Below, piece after piece: positions 22,662-49,808 of a stretch of DNA of 49,808 nucleotides. Within the stretch, counting starts at the first letter, position 1. Every line of letters starts with the position of its first letter. This stretch comes from a virus: positions 1 through 49,808 of IMG/VR virus record IMGVR_UViG_3300035698_003983; one strand, 5' to 3'. The notes below the pieces were generated by a model. That model worked only from the letters and a program-made list of their open reading frames with translations. It searched no databases and was not told the DNA's origin. The translations under genes and the position numbers were made by a program.

Positions 22662-22796
22662 ATGACAAAACTTGCACTAGACGGGAGTTGTTATGCTTCA
22701 CGCATAATTGGACAAGAAAAAGGGCGGCGAGGTCTACAACACCTCAAGCCGCCCACACCAGCAAAGGGCAAGTTCACTGGATGGGACAATCAATAG
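22662..22796 (+). CDS. Possible small gene, 44 aa
   Basis: ATG at 22662 reads MTKLALDGSCYASRIIGQEK and ends LKPPTPAKGKFTGWDNQ. The palindrome at 22,691 is translated inside it (CYASRII). Its tail resembles the 19-residue peptide at 23,757 (LKWPQASNNKFSGDIDI), the main reason to list it. No good ribosome site is present; it may be a remnant. Confidence 0.25.
   Translation: MTKLALDGSCYASRIIGQEKGRRGLQHLKPPTPAKGKFTGWDNQ
22691..22707. repeat. 17-bp palindrome, copy 5
   Basis: TTATGC-ttcac-GCATAA, about 75 bp upstream of the first glycine-repeat gene. Confidence 0.9.
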
Positions 22797-22969
22797 ATAT
22801 CGTGCGTGCCGAAAGCAAGGGCAAGGGCGACGGCAACGGCGACGGCTTCGGCGACGGAAAAGGCTGGGGCACAGGCGACGGCTTCGGTAACGGCGACGGC
22901 GACGGCAACGGCTGGGGCAACGGCAGCGGCAAGGGCAGCGGCGGCGGAAAAGGCTGGGGCAAGGGATGA
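22781..22969 (+). CDS. (Gly-X)n repeat protein 1
   Basis: 62 residues: a 12-residue head (MGQSIDIVRAES) and then Gly at every second position with X drawn from K, D, N, F, W, T and S. GGC dominates the Gly codons. It opens a chain of six genes joined by 4-nt ATGA overlaps up to 23,816. The start is uncertain, as no clear ribosome site precedes the ATG. Function unknown; Gly-X repeats could form a polyglycine-II-like or disordered structure. Confidence 0.5.
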   Translation: MGQSIDIVRAESKGKGDGNGDGFGDGKGWGTGDGFGNGDGDGNGWGNGSGKGSGGGKGWGKG

Positions 22970-23184
22970 GTAGCGGCTACGGTTTCGGCAAGGGCACCGG
23001 CAAGGGCAACGGCAACGGCACCGGCAAGGGCAAGGGCAAAGGCTACGGCACCGGCACTGGCTACGGCACCGGCTACGGTTTCGGCAGGGGCAACGGCGAC
23101 GGAAAAGGGAGTGGCAGGGGCACCGGTTTCGGCTACGGCACCGACAACGGCTACGGCGACGGAAAAGGGAGTGGAGAAGGATGA
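22966..23184 (+). CDS. (Gly-X)n repeat protein 2
   Basis: 72 residues, MSSGYGFGKGTGKGNGNG and onwards, with Gly at alternate positions to the end (GKGSGEG). Its ATG overlaps the stop of repeat protein 1 (ATGA) behind CAAGGG. Aromatic Tyr and Phe recur among the X residues, no aliphatic residue occurs. The maintained G-x-G-x frame through 72 codons argues that it is translated, since other frames would tolerate any indel. Confidence 0.55.
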   Translation: MSSGYGFGKGTGKGNGNGTGKGKGKGYGTGTGYGTGYGFGRGNGDGKGSGRGTGFGYGTDNGYGDGKGSGEG

Positions 23185-23369
23185 GTAGCGGCAAGGGTAT
23201 GGGTAGCAGCAAGGGCAAGGGCGACGGCAACGGCCACGGCTACGGCCACGGCACCTGCACCGGCAACGGCAACGGCATAGGCTCCGGCAAGGGCGTAGGC
23301 TACGGCAACGGCTACGGCAACGGCAACAGCGGCGACAACGGCGACGGAAAAGGGAGTGGTGAAGGATGA
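23181..23369 (+). CDS. (Gly-X)n repeat protein 3
   Basis: 62 residues, MSSGKGMGSSKGKGDGNGHG to GDGKGSGEG. ATGA overlap with the preceding gene, GAAGG as ribosome site directly before. It shares the MSSG start and the GDGKGSGEG end with repeat protein 2, showing tandem duplication. It carries the single Cys of the group in this chain. Confidence 0.55.
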   Translation: MSSGKGMGSSKGKGDGNGHGYGHGTCTGNGNGIGSGKGVGYGNGYGNGNSGDNGDGKGSGEG

Positions 23370-23560
23370 ACAAAGTATCGAACAACACGGCTGGTCGGCA
23401 AACTGTTTACTGGGTGCCTAAACTGTCGAAGTGGCGTGCCAAGATCACGGTCAATGGGCAGAAGCGCCACTTGGGGTACTATGACACCCGTGCGGCTGCA
23501 CAGGATGCCTACGACGAGGCGGCCCATAAGTTTCACCGCCGCGTAGGTCGAGTGGAATGA
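23366..23560 (+). CDS. AP2-domain DNA-binding protein, 64 aa
   Basis: The whole protein is one AP2/ERF-like domain: TVYWVPKLSKWRAKITVNG, then HLGYYDTRAAAQDAYDEAAHKF, i.e. three strands with the W-RA-I signature and the HLG.YDT..AA..AYD.AA helix. In phages such domains usually accompany HNH homing nucleases; here it stands alone. It is embedded between glycine-repeat genes with ATGA overlaps on both sides, so it is co-translated with them. It may bind the repeated DNA elements; that is inference. Confidence 0.75.
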   Translation: MNKVSNNTAGRQTVYWVPKLSKWRAKITVNGQKRHLGYYDTRAAAQDAYDEAAHKFHRRVGRVE

Positions 23561-23760
23561 CTGGGGACGGCGATGGCATAGGTGCGGGCAACGGCAAGGG
23601 TAGTGGCAACGGGCATGGCACCGGCACCGGCACCGGCAACGGGTATGGTTTCGGCAACGGGCATGGCTACGGCAACGGCGACGGCTTCGGCGACGGTGCC
23701 GGTGACGGCGACGGCACGGGCAACGGGTATGGCTACGGCACGGGCGAGGGCGAAGGATGA
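23557..23760 (+). CDS. (Gly-X)n repeat protein 4
   Basis: 67 residues, MTGDGDGIGAGNGKGSGNG through GYGTGEGEG. Overlaps the AP2 gene by ATGA. Same composition rule as its relatives: Gly alternating with small, polar or aromatic residues. Confidence 0.55.
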   Translation: MTGDGDGIGAGNGKGSGNGHGTGTGTGNGYGFGNGHGYGNGDGFGDGAGDGDGTGNGYGYGTGEGEG

Positions 23761-23816
23761 GCCTCAAGTGGCCCCAAGCCTCAAACAATAAGTTCTCAGG
23801 CGATATTGACATATAA
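23757..23816 (+). CDS. Possible 19-residue peptide ending the chain
   Basis: ATGA-coupled to the preceding gene behind GAAGG: MSLKWPQASNNKFSGDIDI then TAA. It would be the last unit of the six-gene chain. The stop codon lies inside the promoter/operator at 23,806-23,834. Its similarity to the tail of the 44-residue frame at 22,662 makes translation plausible, but the shortness keeps this tentative. Confidence 0.3.
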   Translation: MSLKWPQASNNKFSGDIDI

Positions 23817-23834
23817 CGTGTTATATCGTAGTAT
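23806..23834 (+). promoter_or_regulatory. Strong sigma-70-like promoter with internal operator
   Basis: TTGACA, a 17-bp spacer and TAGTAT. The spacer overlaps a palindrome ATATAAC-GT-GTTATAT (23,811-23,826), the ideal place for a repressor. It would drive rightward transcription of the accessory genes from about 23,842. Confidence 0.65.
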
Positions 23835-23909
23835 GAAAGGGTATTGAGAGACACGTTGTCTTGCGATGCACGCTCTTTGAAATCATCAAACGACCAAGGC
23901 TAGGCAGAC

Positions 23910-23926
23910 TTATGCGTCCCGCATAA
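23910..23926. repeat. 17-bp palindrome, copy 6
   Basis: TTATGC-gtccc-GCATAA, in the leader about 75 bp after the predicted transcription start. Confidence 0.9.
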
Positions 23927-24129
23927 CGACACCGATAATGCTAACTGACCTGCTGACCAAGAGCATTGGGGCAAGAAAACGTTCCGTACACATGATGCAC
24001 GAAGGACCAGAAACACTGGCACGGACCCACTGCATTGCAGTGCCCGAACGAACATACAAAGCAGGCAGCGAACAAGAGAACGCGCCATGCGGACTAACAC
24101 CCCGCGCGGCGCTAGGGAACTGGTAGCAA

Positions 24130-24146
24130 TTATGCGTGAAGCATAA
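24130..24146. repeat. 17-bp palindrome, copy 7
   Basis: TTATGC-gtgaa-GCATAA, 19 bp before the ATG at 24,166. With its flank (31 bp including AACAAACAATGGAG) it is identical to copy 8; the two bracket the gene 24,166-24,408. Confidence 0.9.
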
Positions 24147-24165
24147 CAAACAATGGAGAAACACT

Positions 24166-24408
24166 ATGAAATTTCAAATACAAATCGGCCGCGATGCAAG
24201 AATTTACTACAGCACAACTGTCGAAGCGGAGAGCCTTGAAGAAGTTCAAGAAAAAGTCTCTCGGCATGGATTTGAATGTCCTGAAGATACTGTCTGGATC
24301 AATGACGGAACGGACGACTTCGACAATGTGGAAACTGCAGTCATCGAACTTGCAGATGGATCAATGGTGAAATGGGACGAAGGCAACGGGTGGCAAGAAG
24401 CTGAGTAA
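24166..24408 (+). CDS. Unknown small acidic phage protein, 80 aa
   Basis: MKFQIQIGRDARIYYSTTVEAESLEEVQEKVSRHG and onwards: an alpha/beta protein with two beta-hairpin-like segments and one helix, acidic (TDDFDNVE, WDEGNG). The ATG has GGAG seven bases upstream; an in-frame upstream ATG lies inside the palindrome flank and is rejected. It stands as a cassette between two identical palindrome-bearing repeats. No family recognised. Confidence 0.6.
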   Translation: MKFQIQIGRDARIYYSTTVEAESLEEVQEKVSRHGFECPEDTVWINDGTDDFDNVETAVIELADGSMVKWDEGNGWQEAE

Positions 24409-24415
24409 AAACAAA

Positions 24416-24432
24416 TTATGCGTGAAGCATAA
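24416..24432. repeat. 17-bp palindrome, copy 8
   Basis: TTATGC-gtgaa-GCATAA, same loop as copy 7, 18 bp before the ATG at 24,451. Confidence 0.9.
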
Positions 24433-24450
24433 CAAACAATGGAGGACATC

Positions 24451-24723
24451 ATGTCCGGCTTAACAACAATACGAAACATCGTGGCTTCATCGAACGCAGA
24501 CGATCACGGTAGCTTAATGAACTCAATCAGCGCAGCTGTGGAATGGCTTGCAGAGCACGACGCCAACCAAACAAACTATGCCAACGCTATTCAAGCGGCA
24601 CGTGACGAGTACCACCGCGCCGGTGAGGTTGAACTGGACGATGAAGTTCTTGTGTCTGTTGGCGCAGATCCCGGCGTTTATGTTTCTGCGTGGGTTTGGG
24701 TAGATTTCCCAGATGACGCATAA
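24451..24723 (+). CDS. Unknown small phage protein, 90 aa
   Basis: MSGLTTIRNIVASSNADDHGSLMNSISAAVEWLAEHD.NQTNYANAIQAARDEYHRAG then an acidic hydrophobic end (VSVGADPGVYVSAWVWVDFPDDA). GGAGG precedes the ATG by seven bases. The last codons and stop (GATGACGCATAA) form a half-copy of the palindrome and overlap the ATG of the next glycine-repeat gene. No family recognised. Confidence 0.6.
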   Translation: MSGLTTIRNIVASSNADDHGSLMNSISAAVEWLAEHDANQTNYANAIQAARDEYHRAGEVELDDEVLVSVGADPGVYVSAWVWVDFPDDA

Positions 24724-24949
24724 TGGGAAGCCGCGGCTACGGCAGGGGCACGGCTTCGGCAACGGCTACGGCAACGGCAAGGGCGTAGGCTACGGCAGCG
24801 GCAGCGGCGACGGTGACGGCGACGGCGACGGCAGGGGATTCGGCAACGGCTTCGGTGACGGCAGCGGCACCGGCTACGGCTTCGGCAACGGCAGGGGCTA
24901 CGGCAACGGCGACGGCTTCGGCAACGGCGACGGCACGGGTCGCGGGTAA
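24723..24949 (+). pseudogene. (Gly-X)n repeat protein 5, apparently frameshifted
   Basis: The expected TAATG-coupled start at 24723 gives MGSRGYGRGT and then loses the repeat frame; from about 24,750 the Gly-X pattern (GHGFGNGYGNGKGVGYG...) continues in the +2 frame to a stop at 24,949. One missing base in a GGC-AxC-GGC unit would explain it. An in-frame ATG at 24,713 can still start the long repeat in the present frame. Either a sequencing/assembly slip in a repeat, a true mutation, or slippage-controlled expression. Confidence 0.5.
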
Positions 24950-24966
24950 AACAATGGAGAACTACT

Positions 24967-25302
24967 ATGAAAATCGACGCTATTACACTCAACGCAGACA
25001 ATGCTTTCCGCACTGCATTTGCAGCAATCTGCAAGGTCGCACTGCCTCACATGGTGCCTAACGCTTATCACGGAGACTTGTTGTACGACGCAGCAACGGT
25101 GGCCGGGCTGGATACGGATGGTCGGGTCTTTATCCTCGTGCGTGAGGTCGGCACGTTTACTTATGCGCATGTAGACGACGCTATAGCCCACCTTTACAAA
25201 ACCGACGGCGTTGCGGTGCTCAAGGTTACGCGTGGCCGCTTCGACAGCTTCAAGGTGCAGGAGGTGTATAACAAGGATGATGGATTTATGCGCGACGCAT
25301 AA
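24967..25302 (+). CDS. Unknown phage protein, 111 aa
   Basis: GGAG stands seven bases before the ATG. MKIDAITLNADNAFRTAFAAICKVALPHMV is followed by an alpha/beta middle (DGRVFILVREVGTFTYAHVDDAIAHLYKTDGVAVLKVT). The final residues FMRDA and the stop are encoded by palindrome copy 9, whose TAA overlaps the ATG of the following repeat gene. No family recognised. Confidence 0.6.
   Translation: MKIDAITLNADNAFRTAFAAICKVALPHMVPNAYHGDLLYDAATVAGLDTDGRVFILVREVGTFTYAHVDDAIAHLYKTDGVAVLKVTRGRFDSFKVQEVYNKDDGFMRDA
25286..25302. repeat. 17-bp palindrome, copy 9 (stop/start junction)
   Basis: TTATGC-gcgac-GCATAA. It is translated as the C-terminus of the preceding gene and provides its stop codon; the following TG completes the next start codon (TAATG). 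Confidence 0.9.
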
Positions 25303-25556
25303 TGAAAGCCAACGGCAAGGGCTTCGGCGACGGCATAGGCTTCGGCAATGGCAACGGCCTCGGCAACGGCACCGGCAGGGGCCTCGGCAATGGCAACGGC
25401 TTCGGCACCGGCACCGGCACCGGCAGGGGCGACGGCAGCGGCAACGGTTACGGCAAGGCCAACGGCAGCGGCAACGGCACCGGCACCGGCAACGGCTTCG
25501 GCAACGGCTTCGGCAACGGCGACGGCGGCGGCGGCGGCGGGGCCTGCAGAGGTTAA
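25302..25556 (+). CDS. (Gly-X)n repeat protein 6
   Basis: 84 residues, MKANGKGFGDGIGFGNGNGL and so on, ending in a GGGGGG run and ACRG. TAATG overlap with the preceding gene. The strict alternation of Gly holds over about 75 residues; triplet GTG (Gly-Thr-Gly) and GNG units dominate. The GGC-GGC end suggests replication slippage. Confidence 0.55.
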   Translation: MKANGKGFGDGIGFGNGNGLGNGTGRGLGNGNGFGTGTGTGRGDGSGNGYGKANGSGNGTGTGNGFGNGFGNGDGGGGGGACRG

Positions 25557-25559
25557 ACG

Positions 25560-25576
25560 TTATGCGCACTGCATAA
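25560..25576. repeat. 17-bp palindrome, copy 10
   Basis: TTATGC-gcact-GCATAA, arms extended by G/C (GTTATGC/GCATAAC), between repeat protein 6 and the gene at 25,628. Confidence 0.9.
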
Positions 25577-25607
25577 CACGAAACGACGAGAACTTTAACA
25601 CGGCAAC

Positions 25608-25627
25608 AATCCTGAAAGGATTACACA
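25608..25627 (+). promoter_or_regulatory. Ribosome site inside a 6-bp hairpin (copy 2)
   Basis: AATCCT-GAA-AGGATT puts the Shine-Dalgarno AAAGGA into the right arm of a perfect 6-bp inverted repeat, five bases before the ATG at 25628. The pairing could hinder ribosome entry until melted. Confidence 0.6.
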
Positions 25628-25948
25628 ATGACGACTATTACATACCCAATCGGCGAAAAAGTAATCATTCGCTCGGTTGACAGCGGCGTTCACTACGGCA
25701 CGCTCAAGGCGGTAAACGAGACAGGTCAGACGGTACAACTTACTGACAGCCGCCGCCTGTGGCGTTGGAAGATTGCAGGCACAGGGATTTCGTTGAGCGA
25801 GGTTGCTATCGTTGGTATCGACCACGCGGGTTCAAAGATCACAATGGTCACACCTGACATCATTGTTGCGGGTGTGTGCGAGATCTTCGCCGCTCACGGC
25901 ATGGCGATCGCCACGATCGAAGGCGCAGAAGTCGCAGAGGCTGAGTAA
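25628..25948 (+). CDS. DUF6948-like phage protein, 106 aa
   Basis: The core GEKVIIRSVDSGVHYGTLKAVNETGQTVQLTDSRRLWRWKIAGTGISLSEVA matches the short family I know as DUF6948 (K-VIVRS..GV..GTL....G..V.L...RR.W.W). It is a small beta-barrel-like protein of unknown function found in many phages. Acidic tail (IEGAEVAEAE). It is led by the hairpin ribosome site and followed after 1 nt by another glycine-repeat gene. Confidence 0.65.
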   Translation: MTTITYPIGEKVIIRSVDSGVHYGTLKAVNETGQTVQLTDSRRLWRWKIAGTGISLSEVAIVGIDHAGSKITMVTPDIIVAGVCEIFAAHGMAIATIEGAEVAEAE

Positions 25949-25949
25949 C

Positions 25950-26168
25950 ATGTCCTCTGAATATGGAAATGGGTCCCCAGCGGGAAGAGGTGATCGCTGG
26001 GGCGAAGGCACTGGATACGGCGCGGGTTCAGGAAATGGGCGAGGTAAAAACACGGGCCACGGACAAGGTGCCGACGATAGCAACGGGATGAACCTCGGTA
26101 ACGGCAACGGCGACGGCGACGGCATGGCGATAGGTTACAGTGCAGGGAAAGGATCAGGGAAAGGATGA
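25950..26168 (+). CDS. (Gly-X)n repeat protein 7
   Basis: 72 residues, MSSEYGNGSPAGRGDRWGEG to GYSAGKGSGKG. The repeat is less strict than in the others, with a patch ADDSNGMNLG, and its codon use is more varied, so it may be an older member. It starts one base after the preceding stop and overlaps repeat protein 8 by ATGA. Confidence 0.5.
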   Translation: MSSEYGNGSPAGRGDRWGEGTGYGAGSGNGRGKNTGHGQGADDSNGMNLGNGNGDGDGMAIGYSAGKGSGKG

Positions 26169-26437
26169 GCATGTTCAACAAAGGCAGCGGTCGTGGGAAC
26201 GGAGGTGAAGGTGACGGCCGAGGTTTCGGGTGTCGAAGTTCCAGCGACGGCGACGGCGAAGGCGATGCTACAGGTAGCGGCGAAGGCAATGGTTACGGTT
26301 CAGGTTCAGGCGACGGCGACGGTCACGGCTTCGGTTACGGTGACGGCTACGGTTTCGGCAACGGCTTCGGCGGCGGCTATGGAAAACACTTCGGTCGCGG
26401 CACGGACCATCCAACCCTGCGCGTAAACAAAGGTTAG
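26165..26437 (+). CDS. (Gly-X)n repeat protein 8
   Basis: 90 residues. A longer, degenerate head (MSMFNKGSGRGNGGEGDGRGF, then CRSSSDGDG) precedes a regular Gly-X block (GHGFGYGDGYGFGNGFGGGYG) and a non-repeat tail (KHFGRGTDHPTLRVNKG). ATGA overlap with repeat protein 7, ribosome site AAAGG directly before. Confidence 0.5.
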   Translation: MSMFNKGSGRGNGGEGDGRGFGCRSSSDGDGEGDATGSGEGNGYGSGSGDGDGHGFGYGDGYGFGNGFGGGYGKHFGRGTDHPTLRVNKG

Positions 26438-26441
26438 GCAA

Positions 26442-26458
26442 TTATGCCTGACGCATAA
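26442..26458. repeat. 17-bp palindrome, copy 11
   Basis: TTATGC-ctgac-GCATAA, 36 bp before the ATG of the AAA ATPase gene. Confidence 0.9.
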
Positions 26459-26473
26459 CAAACAACACAGCAA

Positions 26474-26493
26474 AATCCTGAAAGGATTAAACA
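26474..26493 (+). promoter_or_regulatory. Ribosome site inside a 6-bp hairpin (copy 3)
   Basis: AATCCT-GAA-AGGATT again, five bases before the ATG at 26494. Nearly identical to the leader at 25,608, so the two leaders share an origin. Confidence 0.6.
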
Positions 26494-27594
26494 ATGTCAC
26501 AAGCAGCAAATCTATACGCACTGACTCTTGAGCAGTGCGCCGATCTCATCGCCAAGTTGGGACACAAGCGCACGGTGATTGTGCAGGGAGACATGGGTTG
26601 CGGTAAGACCTCGGGTCTGCGTCACCTGCTCTCGGCCAAGTTTCCAAACCACACATATGTCGAGTTCGACTGCACCAACAAGGACGTGCAAGACCTGTCC
26701 GCTCCCAAGTTTATCGCCAAGGCAGAAGCTATGATCTCTGACTACGTGGAGTTCGTGCCCAATGCAGAGCTAGGTGCACACCTTGGCACACCGGTGATCA
26801 TCAACTTCGACGAGTTTCTCAAGGCCGTGGAACCTGTCAAGCGTGGCGTGCGGCGCATGATGTTGGAGCGCATGGTGAACGGCATCACGTTGCCAGAGGG
26901 TAGCATAATCTACGGCACATCGAACCTTGGGTCAGAGGGTGTGGGTGACACGCTAGCACCGCATCAGCGCAACGCGATCATCATGGTACGCATGACCAAG
27001 CCGGACGCGACGCGGTGGATCGAGTGGGGTATCAACAACGGTGTTGATCCGTCTGTGTTGGGCTGGGCGCGCGAGAACCCTCAGCTGTTCCAGTCTTTCG
27101 AGGATGTAAAGAACCCCGACGACAACCCGTACATCTATCACCCTAAGTCACAGCGGGCAGCATTCGTCACACAACGCTCACTTGTGGGCGCATCAGACAT
27201 CGTCAAGCTGCGTGATGTGTTAGACGATCACACCATAACAGGCGCGTTGATCGGTACTATTGGTGATCGTGGCGCTATGGATCTTATGGCGTTTGTGGCG
27301 CTGGCCAACGATCTGCCAAGCCTTGAGTCCATCAAGCGTGACCCACACAACGCCAAGGTGCCTAAGTCGGCGGCTGCGATCTGCATGATTGTGTATCGCT
27401 CACTGTCGATCATCGAGCGTGATTGGGTGGACAACTGGATGATCTACCTCGAACGCTTGCCTAGCGAGGCTGCTGGTATGTTTGCCAACGGCGTGCGTGC
27501 AAAGGGTTATGGTAAGCAGGGCATGATGATGACCCACGCTGCGTTCACTGCGTTTGCTCGGACCAATGCCCACCTGTTTGGCGCCGATGTATGA
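26494..27594 (+). CDS. MoxR-type AAA+ ATPase
   Basis: 366 residues. Walker A GDMGCGKT (32-39), Walker B VIINFDEF (101-108), a sensor-like IIYGTSN (about 136-142) and an arginine in the APHQRNAI segment. MoxR-like ATPases act as chaperones together with VWA-domain proteins, loading or remodelling target complexes. The two genes behind it, a helical DUF3150-like protein and a metallopeptidase/VWA protein, complete such a trio. Led by a hairpin ribosome site and preceded by palindrome 11. Confidence 0.8.
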   Translation: MSQAANLYALTLEQCADLIAKLGHKRTVIVQGDMGCGKTSGLRHLLSAKFPNHTYVEFDCTNKDVQDLSAPKFIAKAEAMISDYVEFVPNAELGAHLGTPVIINFDEFLKAVEPVKRGVRRMMLERMVNGITLPEGSIIYGTSNLGSEGVGDTLAPHQRNAIIMVRMTKPDATRWIEWGINNGVDPSVLGWARENPQLFQSFEDVKNPDDNPYIYHPKSQRAAFVTQRSLVGASDIVKLRDVLDDHTITGALIGTIGDRGAMDLMAFVALANDLPSLESIKRDPHNAKVPKSAAAICMIVYRSLSIIERDWVDNWMIYLERLPSEAAGMFANGVRAKGYGKQGMMMTHAAFTAFARTNAHLFGADV

Positions 27595-27613
27595 GGATAA
27601 CAGCCCGATGTAA

Positions 27614-27630
27614 TTATGCGTCGGGCATAA
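27614..27630. repeat. 17-bp palindrome, copy 12
   Basis: TTATGC-gtcgg-GCATAA. A second, overlapping hairpin GCCCGATG/CGTCGGGC (27,603-27,626) competes with it. The whole block is repeated at 28,559. Confidence 0.9.
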
Positions 27631-27655
27631 CAACTAAAACAAGTAAGGAAATACA

Positions 27656-28549
27656 ATGTCTTATATGGAAACACCAAACGTATCAGCACCAACGATATCA
27701 TCGAGAGCTATGCTCGTGGAGTTGGGCATCAGCACATGGACGGCGAAGAAGCGCGACCGCACCACGACAAGCGGTGTGCTCACAGCGAGCGGCGCGTCAA
27801 AGACTGCAGGTGCCTTCAACAAGAACCTGATGGCAGACTGTGAGGAACTGGTAGCAATTCAAAAGTTCGCAGGCAACACTCGCACCATGCACTACAACAT
27901 GACACTGCCTTGGTCAGACAGTGGGTTACGTCTGCTGCCTACCGCCAAATACTTCGACTATCACAAGCAGATGCCGGGTCTCAAAGCGGAGTTCGACAGG
28001 CTGGTGCAGGCGTTCTTGGACGCTTACGACTTTCAAGTTGCGCAGATGCACTTACGCTTGGGCACCCTGTTTCACCGTGACGAGTATCCGACGGGCGACT
28101 CTATCCGTCACAAGTTTTCGTTCCGCATGTCATATATCCCTGTACCTGACACCGGCGACTGGCGTGTGGAGATCGAGAACGACGCACAAGACGAGCTGAA
28201 AGAGCAGTACGCGTCGTTCTATCAGACACAGATGGAGCGAGCGATGGGCGACCTGTGGGAGCGTCTGCACGAGAACCTAGAGCGGTTCGTCAAGCAGCTT
28301 GATGTGGATGACGAGGGCAAGAAGGGCAAGATCTTCGACAGCACCATCGAGAACGTGCAGCACCTCACCGAGATGTTGGACCACTGTAACTTCACCAATG
28401 ATCCGGCTTTGCAGTTAGCACAGCGTAAGCTGTCATCAGCGCTGGCCGGCGTGTGTCGTGAGGATATTGTCAAGAACGAGGGCTTTCGCGCCGATCTCAA
28501 GGACCAGATGGCGGCGGCGATCAAGGCACTGCCAACGCTGGACTTCTAA
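27656..28549 (+). CDS. DUF3150-like protein of the MoxR/VWA module
   Basis: 297 residues, leader AAGGAAATACA. Soluble and mainly helical: a basic N-terminal third (STWTAKKRDRTTTSGVL), a conserved-looking centre (TMHYNMTLPWSDSGLRLLPTAKYFDYHKQMPGLKAEFDRLVQAFLDAYD) and a long helical C-terminal half. Such a protein stands between the ATPase and the VWA protein in many phages and some bacterial plasmids and is known as DUF3150 (assigned from memory and context). It is a likely adaptor or substrate of the ATPase. Confidence 0.6.
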   Translation: MSYMETPNVSAPTISSRAMLVELGISTWTAKKRDRTTTSGVLTASGASKTAGAFNKNLMADCEELVAIQKFAGNTRTMHYNMTLPWSDSGLRLLPTAKYFDYHKQMPGLKAEFDRLVQAFLDAYDFQVAQMHLRLGTLFHRDEYPTGDSIRHKFSFRMSYIPVPDTGDWRVEIENDAQDELKEQYASFYQTQMERAMGDLWERLHENLERFVKQLDVDDEGKKGKIFDSTIENVQHLTEMLDHCNFTNDPALQLAQRKLSSALAGVCREDIVKNEGFRADLKDQMAAAIKALPTLDF

Positions 28550-28569
28550 ACAGTAACAGCCCGACGTGA

Positions 28570-28586
28570 TTATGCGTCGGGCATAA
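28570..28586. repeat. 17-bp palindrome, copy 13
   Basis: TTATGC-gtcgg-GCATAA, same loop as copy 12. The competing hairpin GCCCGACG/CGTCGGGC (28,559-28,582) is perfect here, where copy 12 has a G-U pair. Confidence 0.9.
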
Positions 28587-28601
28587 CCAAGGAGAAATAA
28601 C

Positions 28602-29855
28602 ATGCTACACTTAAAACTTACAGCTGAGCAGCGGCTACAGAAAGCTGCGATCGACATCATGGCCAACCCTCGCTACATGGCGCTGTCTGGCGTCTTGCTT
28701 ATCGGGGAGCGTACCATTGTCGAGGGCGGGCGCATTCAAACTGCGGCCACTGACGGCAAGAACGAGTTCTACAACAGGGCCTTCGTTGACTCGCTGCGTG
28801 ACGCAGAGCTGCGGTTCCTCATGCTGCACGAGGTCGGCCATAAGATGTATAAGCACCTGACAACATGGCGATGGATGTACGATGAGGACGCGGATCTTGC
28901 AAACAGGGCATGTGACTATGTGCTCAACGTGGGGCTGGTGGACGACAACAAGGCCGACGGTTTCGCCACTATGACAGGACCTTTGCTGGGGGGCTGTTTC
29001 GATGAGAAGTATCGGGATTGGGACAGTGCGCGCGTGTTCCGCGATCTGCAGCAGAACGGCGGCGGTGGTGGTGGCGGCGGTGGCCAAGGTCAAGGTCAAG
29101 GCCAAGGTCAAGGTCAAGGTCAGGGTCAAGGTCAAGGTCAAGGTCAAGGTTTCGACGAGCATTTGTGGGATATCGCCAAAGAAATGTCTATCGAGGAGCT
29201 GCAAGAGCTGGGTCGTGAACTCGACGAGGCTGTGCGGCAAGGTGCCATGGCTGCAGGTAAGATGGGCACGGGTGGCGACCGCGACTTTGGTGAGCTACTC
29301 CAGCCGCAACAGGACTGGAAAGAAGCCTTGCGTGAGTATGTGCAGACCACGTGCACAGGCAGCGACTACTCAACATGGCGCAGGCCCAACCGCCGGTATC
29401 TCAGCGCGGGCGTGTATATGCCATCAGCTATAAGCGAGCAGGTGGGAGAACTGGTCATAGCGCTTGACATGTCTGGCTCTACGTTCGCGCCGGGTGTGCT
29501 TCCTCGCATGATGTCGGAGGTCAAGGGTATCGTTGAGACTGTCAAACCCGAGGCTGTCAGGCTGATCTACTGGGACACCGCGATCTGTGGTGACGAGCGC
29601 TACGGGATGGACGAACTTGACTCCCTGATCGAAACCACCAAGCCCAAGGGCGGCGGCGGCACCAACGTCGAGTGTGTGCCTGACCACATGCGCGACAAGA
29701 AGTACAAGCCGCAATGCGCTGTTGTGTTCACCGACGGACATCTAGGTGGCACGTGGGGCTTGTGGGACTGCCCTGTCATGTGGGTTGTCGTCGATAACAA
29801 AGGCTGCGTGCCGCCTCTGGGCACAACTGTGCACGTGTCGTCGGGTCAGCTGTGA
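28602..29855 (+). CDS. Metallopeptidase-like / VWA-domain protein (DUF2201 type)
   Basis: 417 residues, AAGGAG before the ATG. The N-terminal domain (about 1-150) has the zinc motif MLHEVGHKMYKH with HEVGH at 76-80. A spacer of nine Gly followed by eleven Gln-Gly repeats (about 153-183) leads to a C-terminal VWA domain with MIDAS residues in ALDMSGST (Asp289, Ser291, Ser293) and VFTDGH later. This fits the DUF2201 family (putative metallopeptidase plus VWA-like domain), partner of MoxR ATPases. The GGTCAA hexamer repeat at 29,084-29,152 encodes the linker and is likely unstable. Confidence 0.8.
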   Translation: MLHLKLTAEQRLQKAAIDIMANPRYMALSGVLLIGERTIVEGGRIQTAATDGKNEFYNRAFVDSLRDAELRFLMLHEVGHKMYKHLTTWRWMYDEDADLANRACDYVLNVGLVDDNKADGFATMTGPLLGGCFDEKYRDWDSARVFRDLQQNGGGGGGGGGQGQGQGQGQGQGQGQGQGQGQGFDEHLWDIAKEMSIEELQELGRELDEAVRQGAMAAGKMGTGGDRDFGELLQPQQDWKEALREYVQTTCTGSDYSTWRRPNRRYLSAGVYMPSAISEQVGELVIALDMSGSTFAPGVLPRMMSEVKGIVETVKPEAVRLIYWDTAICGDERYGMDELDSLIETTKPKGGGGTNVECVPDHMRDKKYKPQCAVVFTDGHLGGTWGLWDCPVMWVVVDNKGCVPPLGTTVHVSSGQL

Positions 29856-30040
29856 GTGACGACCTCAAACGTAGCAACGGCGATGGCAAGGGAGAGGGCA
29901 ATGGCGACGGTGACGGTAGCGGCCGCGGCTCGGGCGTTGATGGTGACGGTCACGGATCAGGAGTGTTCCACTGCGCGGACGGAAGCGGGCTTGCCAATGG
30001 TTATGGCAACGCAGAAGGCAGCGGTAAGGGTCGCGGGTAA
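29852..30040 (+). CDS. (Gly-X)n repeat protein 9
   Basis: 62 residues from a GTG that overlaps the VWA gene's stop (GTGA): SDDLKRSNGDGKGEGNGDGD and onward, with an interruption VFHCADGSGLAN, ending GSGKGRG. Its following a true gene and preceding a palindrome repeats the layout of its relatives 6 kb upstream. Confidence 0.5.
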   Translation: MSDDLKRSNGDGKGEGNGDGDGSGRGSGVDGDGHGSGVFHCADGSGLANGYGNAEGSGKGRG

Positions 30041-47409: not shown

Positions 47410-47440
47410 GCCCCCGCGCTCCGGCACGGGGGCTTTTTTT
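47410..47440 (+). terminator. Rho-independent terminator at the end of the replication operon
   Basis: GCCCCCG-N10-CGGGGGC followed by seven T. It ends rightward transcription where the leftward virion-protein gene begins to converge; the stop codon of that gene lies in the T-run. Confidence 0.9.
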
Positions 47441-49808
47441 ATTGCCATATGGTGGCAGGGTTCCAAGCGTCCGTCATTGCCTCCACCGTGGCACGGTTCG
47501 CAGGGGAGACGTACATTCCGTGGGTGGTTTCCGCAGTCACTCGCAGGGACGCCCGATATGATTGGCGTTTGGTTTCCGGCAGGATTTGGTTCCGTGGATT
47601 GCGAGTGTTGAACTCCCGAATGTCCTCTTCAATGTCGCGTATTTGATCAAAGTCACCTTCGCTGCGCGCTCTGTTCAGACGTTGCAGCAGGCGGCTCTTA
47701 CCCCGGTTGATCGCGTTGTTCACGTTCGTACCAAACGAGTTCATGTCCAGCTTCTGCGCATAGGACGTTGGCATAAAGCCAAACGCTTGCGCAGCTATGT
47801 TGAACCGGCCGATGTCATCAACAAGGTCCCCTCGGCGCGTTTCGATACCGTCACGTGAATACCGCATGGCGCGCAACGCGTTGGCGATGGATGATGGTGC
47901 GACACCCTCAAAGAAGCGTTGCACGTCCCCGTTGGCGAGGTCTTGGTACGGCCTTTCGGCGAGATACTTGAGAGCCATGCCGAGCACTGGGCCGCCAACA
48001 CCTTCCGCCACCTGAAACAGAGGTGGTGAGTTTTGAGCCCCGAAACCGGGACGATAGATAGGTGCACCCAAACCGATACGTTCCGACATCTTAAGCCCGG
48101 ACAGGTAGTCAACAAGACCGAACGTGCCAGCCTCGCCCAAAGTCATACGTAGCATTGTCTCGAAGTCGGGTTCGTCGTCGTCTTGGAACAGCAGGTCGTA
48201 GGCCCAGCCAAACTGCTGCGCGAGGGGCATGCCCATGGCACCTGCCATAACCGCCATGCCGCCAAACATACGGACAATTTGGCGTTGGGCAATACGACGA
48301 TCCTCTGGGTCCGCACCAACGCTGCGCATGGTTGTCTGCGCGATAAGGTTCATCATCGAGATCGGGTGGCGTTTGAACATGTAGATAAGCGAGGTAAAGT
48401 TGCCCATCGAAGAGATAGGTCCTGCGGCTGCATAGATCGGCCCGTTTGACTTCTCGGACACGTTGACTGCAGTTTCGGCAGCGGCAAGGGCTTGCTCTTG
48501 CGTGAACGTGATATCCCCGTTTTCCAACCCTTTGACAAAATCTTTGACGGGCATGTCCTGCCTGCCGATGAGCTCCTGCATCTCAAGAATATAGGCAGCG
48601 TTCAGAGCGGTCTCGCGGGAATAGCGTTCCGCTTGGTGCTGCATGATACCGGTGCTGGCCGCGACCTTTTCCCACAGGTTCGCCTGCTCACCGAGCAGCT
48701 CGTCCTGCATGAGAGAGCGGTTGAACACCCCGTTGGCTTTGGCGAACTTGATCAGCGGCGCCAGATACGGTGCGTCATTGTACTCGGTGGAGTATTCAAA
48801 GAACGGCACCTTTTCCTTAACTGTTTCCACTTGACCCTCGGGTCCAACGCGAGTGACGGTGCGCTCACGACCGGCGGCCGCCAGTATTCTGTTGGCCGCG
48901 CCTATCGCACCAATGGCCCGCAGGTCGCTGTATGATCCAGCAAGCACAGGGTACACGAAGAGCGGTATCTGCGACAACGTCACAAGGGCAGTGGACGCGT
49001 TGAAGCCCAGCGTCAGCATGTACGTGCCGGCACCGAGGCCGCGTGACGCTTTCGATCTAACTTTGAACGGCGCCTCAGTGAAGTTCACCAACGTGTCAGC
49101 GTACTGTGTAGCCTCAGCACGCTGCCTGCTCAAAACCTCGGGGGAGAGGTTGGACAGGTTTGTGTTTTGGAACTGTGCGTTTTGGTCCCGTATGAGCGAT
49201 CGCGCTCTTGCAAACTCCGCACCATACTTCAGGTCCGCCGTTTTACGTGCGATTTTCATTGCGCTGGCCCGCAGGTTCTTCAGCACATCGCCCGAGGCTT
49301 TCGGTGGAGTTATTGGCGTAGCGTCGCCTTTGAAACCGCGGATACCCTGACGTCGCTTGAACGAGTTGATGAACGACGACTCTGGCGAAGTATCCAACAT
49401 CAAATTGATTATCTGCTGGCGCAAGTCGCTGGTTTGGCCTGTGACGGGATCTGTTACCGCTGCAAACTCGCCGGATGTGTCGATGGCGTCAAGCACCTTG
49501 CCGACGAAGTCCAGCGGTACGTCTTGGCTCGTGAAGCCCGCTGATGCTTGCTGATATGGGTTAATGTTGTTCACACGCTGACCTGCAGGTAGGGCTTCGA
49601 GAACGCGTATCGCGTCGGCCCGTTCCTCCACAGTCTCAAACGAATGCTTGAACTGCTCAACTTGCCCGTTCGACATGTCACCCTGACCGGTCACTGGATC
49701 AAAGGTAACAGAGAGTGGGTCGATCGCGTCGTATGACAGCCAAAACTCGCCCGAGCGTGCCATGTTGAGGTACGGGTCGAGCAGTTGCTCAGACAGGATC
49801 TTGTCGTA
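47439..49808 (-). CDS. Very large virion protein, C-terminal 789 residues (5' end beyond window)
   Basis: The frame is open to the right edge (YDKILSEQLLDPYLNMARSGEFW at 49,808-49,740, in pieces), so the ATG at 49763 is internal and the gene is longer. The visible part contains mixed helical sequence, two hydrophobic stretches (YMLTLGFNASTALVTLSQIPLFVYPVL and RMFGGMAVMAGAMGMPLAQ) and the conserved phage segment SLIYMFKRHPISMMNLIAQTTMRSV typical of the C-terminal part of giant polyvalent virion proteins (PLxRFA-related). Likely an ejected internal head protein. Convergent with the replication operon. Confidence 0.7.
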   Translation of the reverse strand, partial: YDKILSEQLLDPYLNMARSGEFWLSYDAIDPLSVTFDPVTGQGDMSNGQVEQFKHSFETVEERADAIRVLEALPAGQRVNNINPYQQASAGFTSQDVPLDFVGKVLDAIDTSGEFAAVTDPVTGQTSDLRQQIINLMLDTSPESSFINSFKRRQGIRGFKGDATPITPPKASGDVLKNLRASAMKIARKTADLKYGAEFARARSLIRDQNAQFQNTNLSNLSPEVLSRQRAEATQYADTLVNFTEAPFKVRSKASRGLGAGTYMLTLGFNASTALVTLSQIPLFVYPVLAGSYSDLRAIGAIGAANRILAAAGRERTVTRVGPEGQVETVKEKVPFFEYSTEYNDAPYLAPLIKFAKANGVFNRSLMQDELLGEQANLWEKVAASTGIMQHQAERYSRETALNAAYILEMQELIGRQDMPVKDFVKGLENGDITFTQEQALAAAETAVNVSEKSNGPIYAAAGPISSMGNFTSLIYMFKRHPISMMNLIAQTTMRSVGADPEDRRIAQRQIVRMFGGMAVMAGAMGMPLAQQFGWAYDLLFQDDDEPDFETMLRMTLGEAGTFGLVDYLSGLKMSERIGLGAPIYRPGFGAQNSPPLFQVAEGVGGPVLGMALKYLAERPYQDLANGDVQRFFEGVAPSSIANALRAMRYSRDGIETRRGDLVDDIGRFNIAAQAFGFMPTSYAQKLDMNSFGTNVNNAINRGKSRLLQRLNRARSEGDFDQIRDIEEDIREFNTRNPRNQILPETKRQSYRASLRVTAETTHGMYVSPANRATVEAMTDAWNPATIWQ

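Follow-up and report, generated by a model that had tools for sequence, protein, structure and literature searches.

The phage contig analysed here comes from IMG/VR (record IMGVR_UViG_3300035698_003983, positions 1 to 49,808). This whole 49.8-kb stretch is called the window. It carries nine short open reading frames (ORFs) whose products alternate glycine with another residue, (Gly-X)n, and one gene of the family DUF6948 (PF22253). DUF6948 and Gly-X constitute a conserved phage module of two genes, widespread, usually translationally coupled and sometimes fused, and we hold this conclusion with high confidence. The DUF6948 partner was absent from an earlier sequence-only reading of the window, and its recognition turns isolated repeat genes into a two-gene module.

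The portal and the large terminase are encoded on the minus strand of the window, and the plus-strand region encodes DNA polymerase, exonucleases, helicase and primase. The sequence-only reading had described nine (Gly-X)n genes in the early/accessory region, with Gly at nearly every second position and starts that mostly overlap the preceding stop. All nine ORFs were found at 22,781-30,040; they encode 62-90 amino acids (aa) with 35-49% Gly and 237 G-X-G triplets, and their placement in the early/accessory region was supported. By comparison, eight large ordinary genes of the same genome contain 7.4% Gly and 38 G-X-G triplets per 5,000 aa. The upstream stop is overlapped by seven of the nine starts, as ATGA (22966, 23181, 23557, 26165), GTGA (29852) or TAATG (24723, 25302); the ORF at 25950 begins 1 nucleotide (nt) past a stop, and that at 22781 stands alone. 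The X residues are mainly N, D, Y, K, S, F, T, R, E and H. The claim that X is never aliphatic did not hold: A, V, L, I or M fills 11 of the 237 X positions. A 1-nt frameshift affects the copy at 24,723, where the frame that begins at the ATG departs from Gly-X after about 10 codons; a different ATG, at 24,713, is followed by an open Gly frame. The gene at 25,628-25,948 matches DUF6948 in Pfam with 75.8 bits (cut-off 27). The genes are as follows.

22781..22969, plus strand: Gly-X gene 1 (62 aa)
22966..23184, plus strand: Gly-X gene 2 (72 aa), ATGA overlap with gene 1
23181..23369, plus strand: Gly-X gene 3 (62 aa), ATGA overlap with gene 2
23557..23760, plus strand: Gly-X gene 4 (67 aa), ATGA overlap with an AP2/HNH-like gene (23366-23560)
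24713..24949, plus strand: Gly-X gene 5, frameshifted copy; ATG 24723 (TAATG) off the Gly frame, Gly frame open from ATG 24713
25302..25556, plus strand: Gly-X gene 6 (84 aa), TAATG overlap
25628..25948, plus strand: partner gene DUF6948 (PF22253), predicted Sm/LSm-like fold (Pfam match, AlphaFold2, Foldseek, Gly-X adjacency)
25950..26168, plus strand: Gly-X gene 7 (72 aa), immediately behind DUF6948; C-terminal part similar to the gene at the equivalent place in L001, a related contig
26165..26437, plus strand: Gly-X gene 8 (90 aa), ATGA overlap with gene 7
29852..30040, plus strand: Gly-X gene 9 (62 aa), GTGA overlap with a VWA/DUF2201 gene (28602-29855)

Family libraries returned compositional matches only for the Gly-X proteins (TrAA12, serine-rich), and an Rfam scan of the window gave zero matches. 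The Gly-X family reaches far outside the window. Among 80 relatives of the window's ATPase, 11 carried both DUF6948 and Gly-X, 66 neither, 3 Gly-X only and none DUF6948 only (Fisher p 3e-11); the three with Gly-X only are truncated contigs that start just upstream. A link of Gly-X to the ATPase/VWA genes was rejected, as those 66 of 80 ATPase relatives lack Gly-X. A DUF6948 profile search of IMG/VR viral contigs gave 58 loci, 56 of them informative. A Gly-X ORF was present at 56/56, lay within 105 nt of DUF6948 at 52, and was essentially always on the same strand. The profile had been built from Gly-X-linked members, and therefore named phages were also searched with the DUF6948 sequence alone. 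Gly-X adjoined DUF6948 at every locus examined, including Iodobacter PhiPLPE, Pectobacterium Taid, Dickeya Setonix, Vibrio IKEMa6-1, MW202898, MW202478, Chlorobiaceae CV-1-33 and MT835900, and two prophages likewise carry Gly-X beside DUF6948. Three DUF6948 places occur in L415 (NZ_CP119142.1, Neisseria gonorrhoeae, 2.17 Mb, filed as a plasmid); at the one that was read, a Gly-X ORF without an annotated feature lies directly behind.

Gly-X arrays whose neighbour was missed by the first profile were often preceded by diverged relatives, some of which match Pfam DUF6948 directly. The family typified by gp18 of Barbavirus, where gp17 is the Gly-X gene, has no sequence match to DUF6948, and hhalign gave a weak score (E 0.04, probability 1.3%) when DUF6948 was aligned with the Barba-type partner. 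The link rests on Foldseek: a structure search of BFVD with the DUF6948 model connects it to a Barbavirus protein (E 6e-4). The PHROG family phrog_18306 (unknown function) is a 242-position profile that Gly-X tracts match at about 57-133 and DUF6948 at about 154-236. The scores are weak, and the match may be taken as an independent hint of a Gly-X/DUF6948 fusion, which could also be an annotation artefact because gene callers misframe Gly-X tracts. In 764 sampled bacterial genomes of two classes, searched with a positive control, neither DUF6948 nor the module was found. GGNNAY repeats in bacterial genomes were mostly low-diversity stretches within long ORFs.

The Gly-X ORFs are, almost certainly, genuine protein-coding genes. 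An open frame alone is no proof of this, because a (GGCNNC)n repeat cannot contain a stop in any of the three forward frames. The tracts might be non-coding DNA repeats that are open by chance and have grown through slippage, and the fact that lengths differ by whole units and that copies are gained and lost quickly between the window and L001 would suit this. Length change in six-nt units is expected from slippage and alone is not evidence of selection. The behaviour of the frame contradicts such an origin. The sequence-only reading had proposed that a lack of translation in profiling and free drift of the frame in relatives would make the genes non-coding repeats. Among 404 tracts of at least four units each, from many phages, 16 breaks of the Gly-X register without an intervening stop were in frame and 1 was frameshifting (p 9e-11 against 1 in 5), which argues for coding. 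The variable codon also obeys a rule at the amino-acid level across 76 contigs: Tyr and Asp are present in 76/76, Ala, Cys/Trp and Pro dinucleotides occur at 0.13-0.23 of expectation, and Ser is written as AGY in some lineages and as TCN in others. The near-obligate pairing with DUF6948 across highly divergent phages and the retention of the Gly-X gene in 115/115 Barbavirus records likewise speak against non-coding repeats, and we find that account hardly credible.

The arrangement of the genes agrees with translation. Gly-X starts usually overlap the DUF6948 stop, with offsets of -1 to -17 in most of 41 loci. An in-frame fusion, DUF6948-(Gly-X)43, occurs in L111, in the order Sm-like core and then tail. 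In gut phages, Gly-X is fused in frame to a 149-aa domain, and WP_320691052.1 is annotated likewise. This conserved C-terminal domain (FxWHHxLTGSC motif) was seen in the gut phages L385-L398 and in a Monoglobus element (L414:1770-2531), and neither Pfam nor PHROG gave a match to it. Some deposited annotations are in the wrong frame: Gly-X tracts appear as Ala-Met/Ala-Leu repeats in gene25 of L383 (MT192033) and in L410 (MW202478) at 1505-2077. Reading the tracts in the Gly frame corrects the misframed Ala-Met repeats of MT192033 and MW202478.

The Gly-X/DUF6948 module changes fast. In L002, L004 and L005 the ATPase and DUF6948 are identical, and the Gly-X genes differ by a six-nt unit or by an 18-substitution block. 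When nine Barbavirus variants were compared, Gly-X differed by whole dipeptides and a few substitutions, the preceding gene by at most one base and the following gene by none. L001, whose ATPase is 90% identical to that of the window, has about 18 Gly-X ORFs in 15 kb, some at gene junctions that are empty in the window. Within the clade of the window, the Gly-X part of the module has increased in copy number and come to lie behind other genes as well.

Fast-changing repeats of this kind resemble VIPR systems, in which tandem GGY/NN pentamer RNAs serve as gapped guides (PMC13142463). Both are small phage-encoded loci with fast-changing GG-based tandem repeats beside a small predicted nucleic-acid-binding protein. 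The Gly-X tracts could be RNA elements, alone or in addition to coding, as a relative of VIPR with a six-nt period, in which the NN between conserved GG specifies the target and DUF6948 binds the RNA. The hypervariable repeats adjoining a predicted Sm-like protein would fit this. However, the period is 6 and not 5, and the window has 15 hexamer tracts and 0 pentamer tracts. A RAMP protein reads the VIPR pentamers, which do not encode protein, whereas the hexamers of the window are coding and have an Sm-like partner. The second N is mostly A, the NN set obeys the amino-acid rule, the reading frame is kept, and in-frame protein fusions exist. Target matches of the NN series, with skips of 0-4 in 4.9 Mb of viral DNA, showed no excess over shuffled order, although VIPR targets may lie outside this set. 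This origin is very improbable.

A Vipr-like gene is present in the sister phages L078, L075 and L080, with pentamer repeats nearby and no Gly-X tracts. The L078 gene used as a query found L075 and L080 and nothing in the window, more distant Vipr types being outside this search. Near the Vipr-like gene, 10 and 8 of 12 positions were GGY, compared with at most 5 in controls. The likely VIPR locus lies at L078:6762-8150 (also L075:6536-7294 and L080:7936-8694), just behind a VRR-NUC gene. It encodes a 256-aa protein that contains a Gly-rich loop, and about 500 nt of GGY/NN pentamer repeats come next; the locus was recognised by its likeness to PMC13142463 and by a single count of repeats rather than through a family model. 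Because of the hexamer period, the coding, the biased NN and the sister phages that have a Vipr gene without Gly-X, we regard Gly-X tracts and VIPR as different things, and coding Gly-X tracts can be set apart from look-alike VIPR guide-RNA arrays. A bifunctional tract, in which the Gly-X-coding (GGN NNY)n mRNA is also a repeat-coded, fast-changing ligand of DUF6948 with one repeat per subunit, would be a second kind of repeat-coded phage ribonucleoprotein (RNP) beside VIPR. We consider it a long shot.

The neighbourhood of the module was compared at 28 divergent loci. The identified neighbours were mostly single-stranded DNA-annealing proteins, RecE/YqaJ exonucleases, Erf, resolvase, primosome/replication initiation proteins and HNH proteins, with some terminases. 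Isolated phages agree with this recombination/replication neighbourhood. In Pectobacterium Taid, a tail-fibre gene adjoins the module on the opposite strand. This context bears on the suggestion of the sequence-only reading that Gly-X belongs to the polyglycine-II type known from adhesins. A polyglycine-II or silk-like structural protein, forming Gly-X bundles or sheets as a virion or adhesin part, has in its favour that alternating Gly suits extended or polyproline-II-type packing, and polyglycine-rich bundles are found in phage adhesins and antifreeze proteins (PMC8409303). Like Gly-X, S16 gp38-type adhesins and snow flea antifreeze proteins have extended, repetitive chains that are very rich in Gly. 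They are, however, poly-Gly or Gly-rich helix bundles of tail-tip or secreted proteins, whereas the Gly-X genes of the window show strict alternation in place of poly-Gly blocks and lie in the early region. In most loci the module stands among recombination/replication genes and not tail genes, DUF6948 is nearly always adjacent, and AlphaFold2 gave the tail no confident fold. Membership in the polyglycine-II adhesins is not supported, and a structural role of this kind is improbable.

DUF6948 probably has an Sm/LSm-like fold, as judged from structure prediction. The AlphaFold2 model built with 38 sequences had a pLDDT of 96, a pTM of 0.88 and five strands, as expected of the bent five-stranded barrel of the Sm fold. 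The top 50 Foldseek matches in the PDB were Sm/LSm chains, some listed under spliceosome or small nuclear RNP (snRNP) entry names, together with the NatC subunit 6ygb_C. LSM14 was the best match and EDC3 was also listed; TM-target values were mostly 0.5-0.7. A PDB sequence search with DUF6948 gave no match. In the AlphaFold2 model of the natural fusion, the Sm-like core was confident, and the Gly-X tail was predicted to be disordered.

Coding, pairing, hypervariability, genomic context and the predicted fold were computed here. Nucleic-acid binding, complex formation and condensation are inferred. DUF6948 may act as a hub to which nucleic acid, the Gly-X chain or both bind. The chain may self-associate through Tyr/Phe stickers that are spaced by Gly and Asp/Asn/Ser, and a scaffold or condensate would then form around the nucleic acid of the phage, probably while it recombines and replicates. 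In P bodies and RNP granules, LSm proteins meet low-complexity regions (PMC10530015), and Gly-rich helices or chains occur in condensates (PMC8409303). Taken as a whole, a coding Sm-like/Gly-X module that works as hub and polymer scaffold or condensate is the best explanation, although a tentative one; the scaffold or condensate role by itself, argued by analogy, is possible and somewhat doubtful. The sequence-only reading had mentioned condensate formation and RNA binding among the candidate roles. That suggestion is strengthened because the partner is predicted to be Sm/LSm-like and the Gly-X tail to be disordered, and both activities stay inferred.

Several observations weigh against the scaffold explanation. 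The Foldseek E-values in the PDB were 3.5e-3 or weaker, though the best 50 matches were concordant. The Sm1/Sm2 signature (Asp-x-x-Asn type, Arg-Gly) was not seen by eye among the conserved columns of the DUF6948 alignment, and for this reason DUF6948 is termed Sm-like in fold and not a classical LSm. A few Gly-X arrays (L085, L132 and L160) had no recognised partner on the contig stretches examined, and AlphaFold disorder is no proof of condensation. The module could instead be coding with the Gly-X protein as a specific effector. Such an effector might, for example, inhibit a host defence protein or a nucleic-acid protein or serve as its decoy; DUF6948 would deliver it, and an arms race would have diversified it. 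Rapid change beside nearly identical neighbour genes, the expansion and turnover of copies in the clade of the window, and the absence of the module from the sampled bacterial genomes are consistent with an effector. However, the order of residues varies freely and the composition is kept, as would be expected of a polymer more than of a specific binding surface, and the tail has no predicted folded structure. We consider an effector rather unlikely.

Other features of the window stand apart from the module. The palindrome TTATGC-N5-GCATAA has 19 sites at 20,347-40,932 (0 in 200 shuffles), mostly intergenic and often just 5' of ribosome-binding sites, and is present too in L001-L008, L031 and L052. 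A repeated layout of ordinary gene, Gly-X gene and palindrome had been proposed. The palindrome also follows many ordinary genes, so it is not part of the Gly-X genes and the fixed link is not retained; candidate roles for the palindrome are those of an operator, a processing hairpin and a hairpin promoter. The VWA/DUF2201 gene at 28602-29855, whose product is metallopeptidase-like and has a (Gly-Gln)n linker encoded at about 29,080-29,150, is paired with the AAA ATPase at 26494-27594; PHROG calls this family an HNH endonuclease, in disagreement with Pfam. At 47439-49763 on the minus strand lies the C-terminal part of a giant DarB-like/polyvalent protein (phrog_10089). Its frame runs towards the contig end, and the contig is therefore probably incomplete there.

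No described phage system of this kind was found, and the module appears undescribed. Pfam lists DUF6948 as a domain of unknown function, and the Sm-like predicted fold and the pairing with Gly-X are reported here, which gives DUF6948 a testable role. No literature naming DUF6948 or describing the pair was found, subscription papers and supplements lying outside the search; Gly-X repeat peptide strings led to unrelated papers only, and the Barba phage transcriptome and genome papers name neither gene in the main text. The module can be tested in isolated phages, such as Barbavirus on Rheinheimera BAL341. The nearest counterparts are LSm proteins of eukaryotes (Edc3 with Lsm4 in yeast, LSM14 and Ataxin-2), in which an Sm-like fold likewise has a low-complexity chain as its tail or partner, and the L111 fusion has the LSm-type order. 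Unlike those systems, the module is phage-encoded and mostly split into two genes, has a Gly-X chain in place of Q/N- or RGG-rich tails, and lacks visible canonical Sm residues. If the scaffold model holds, its working principle is already known from eukaryotes, and phages would share it with LSm/low-complexity RNP granules.

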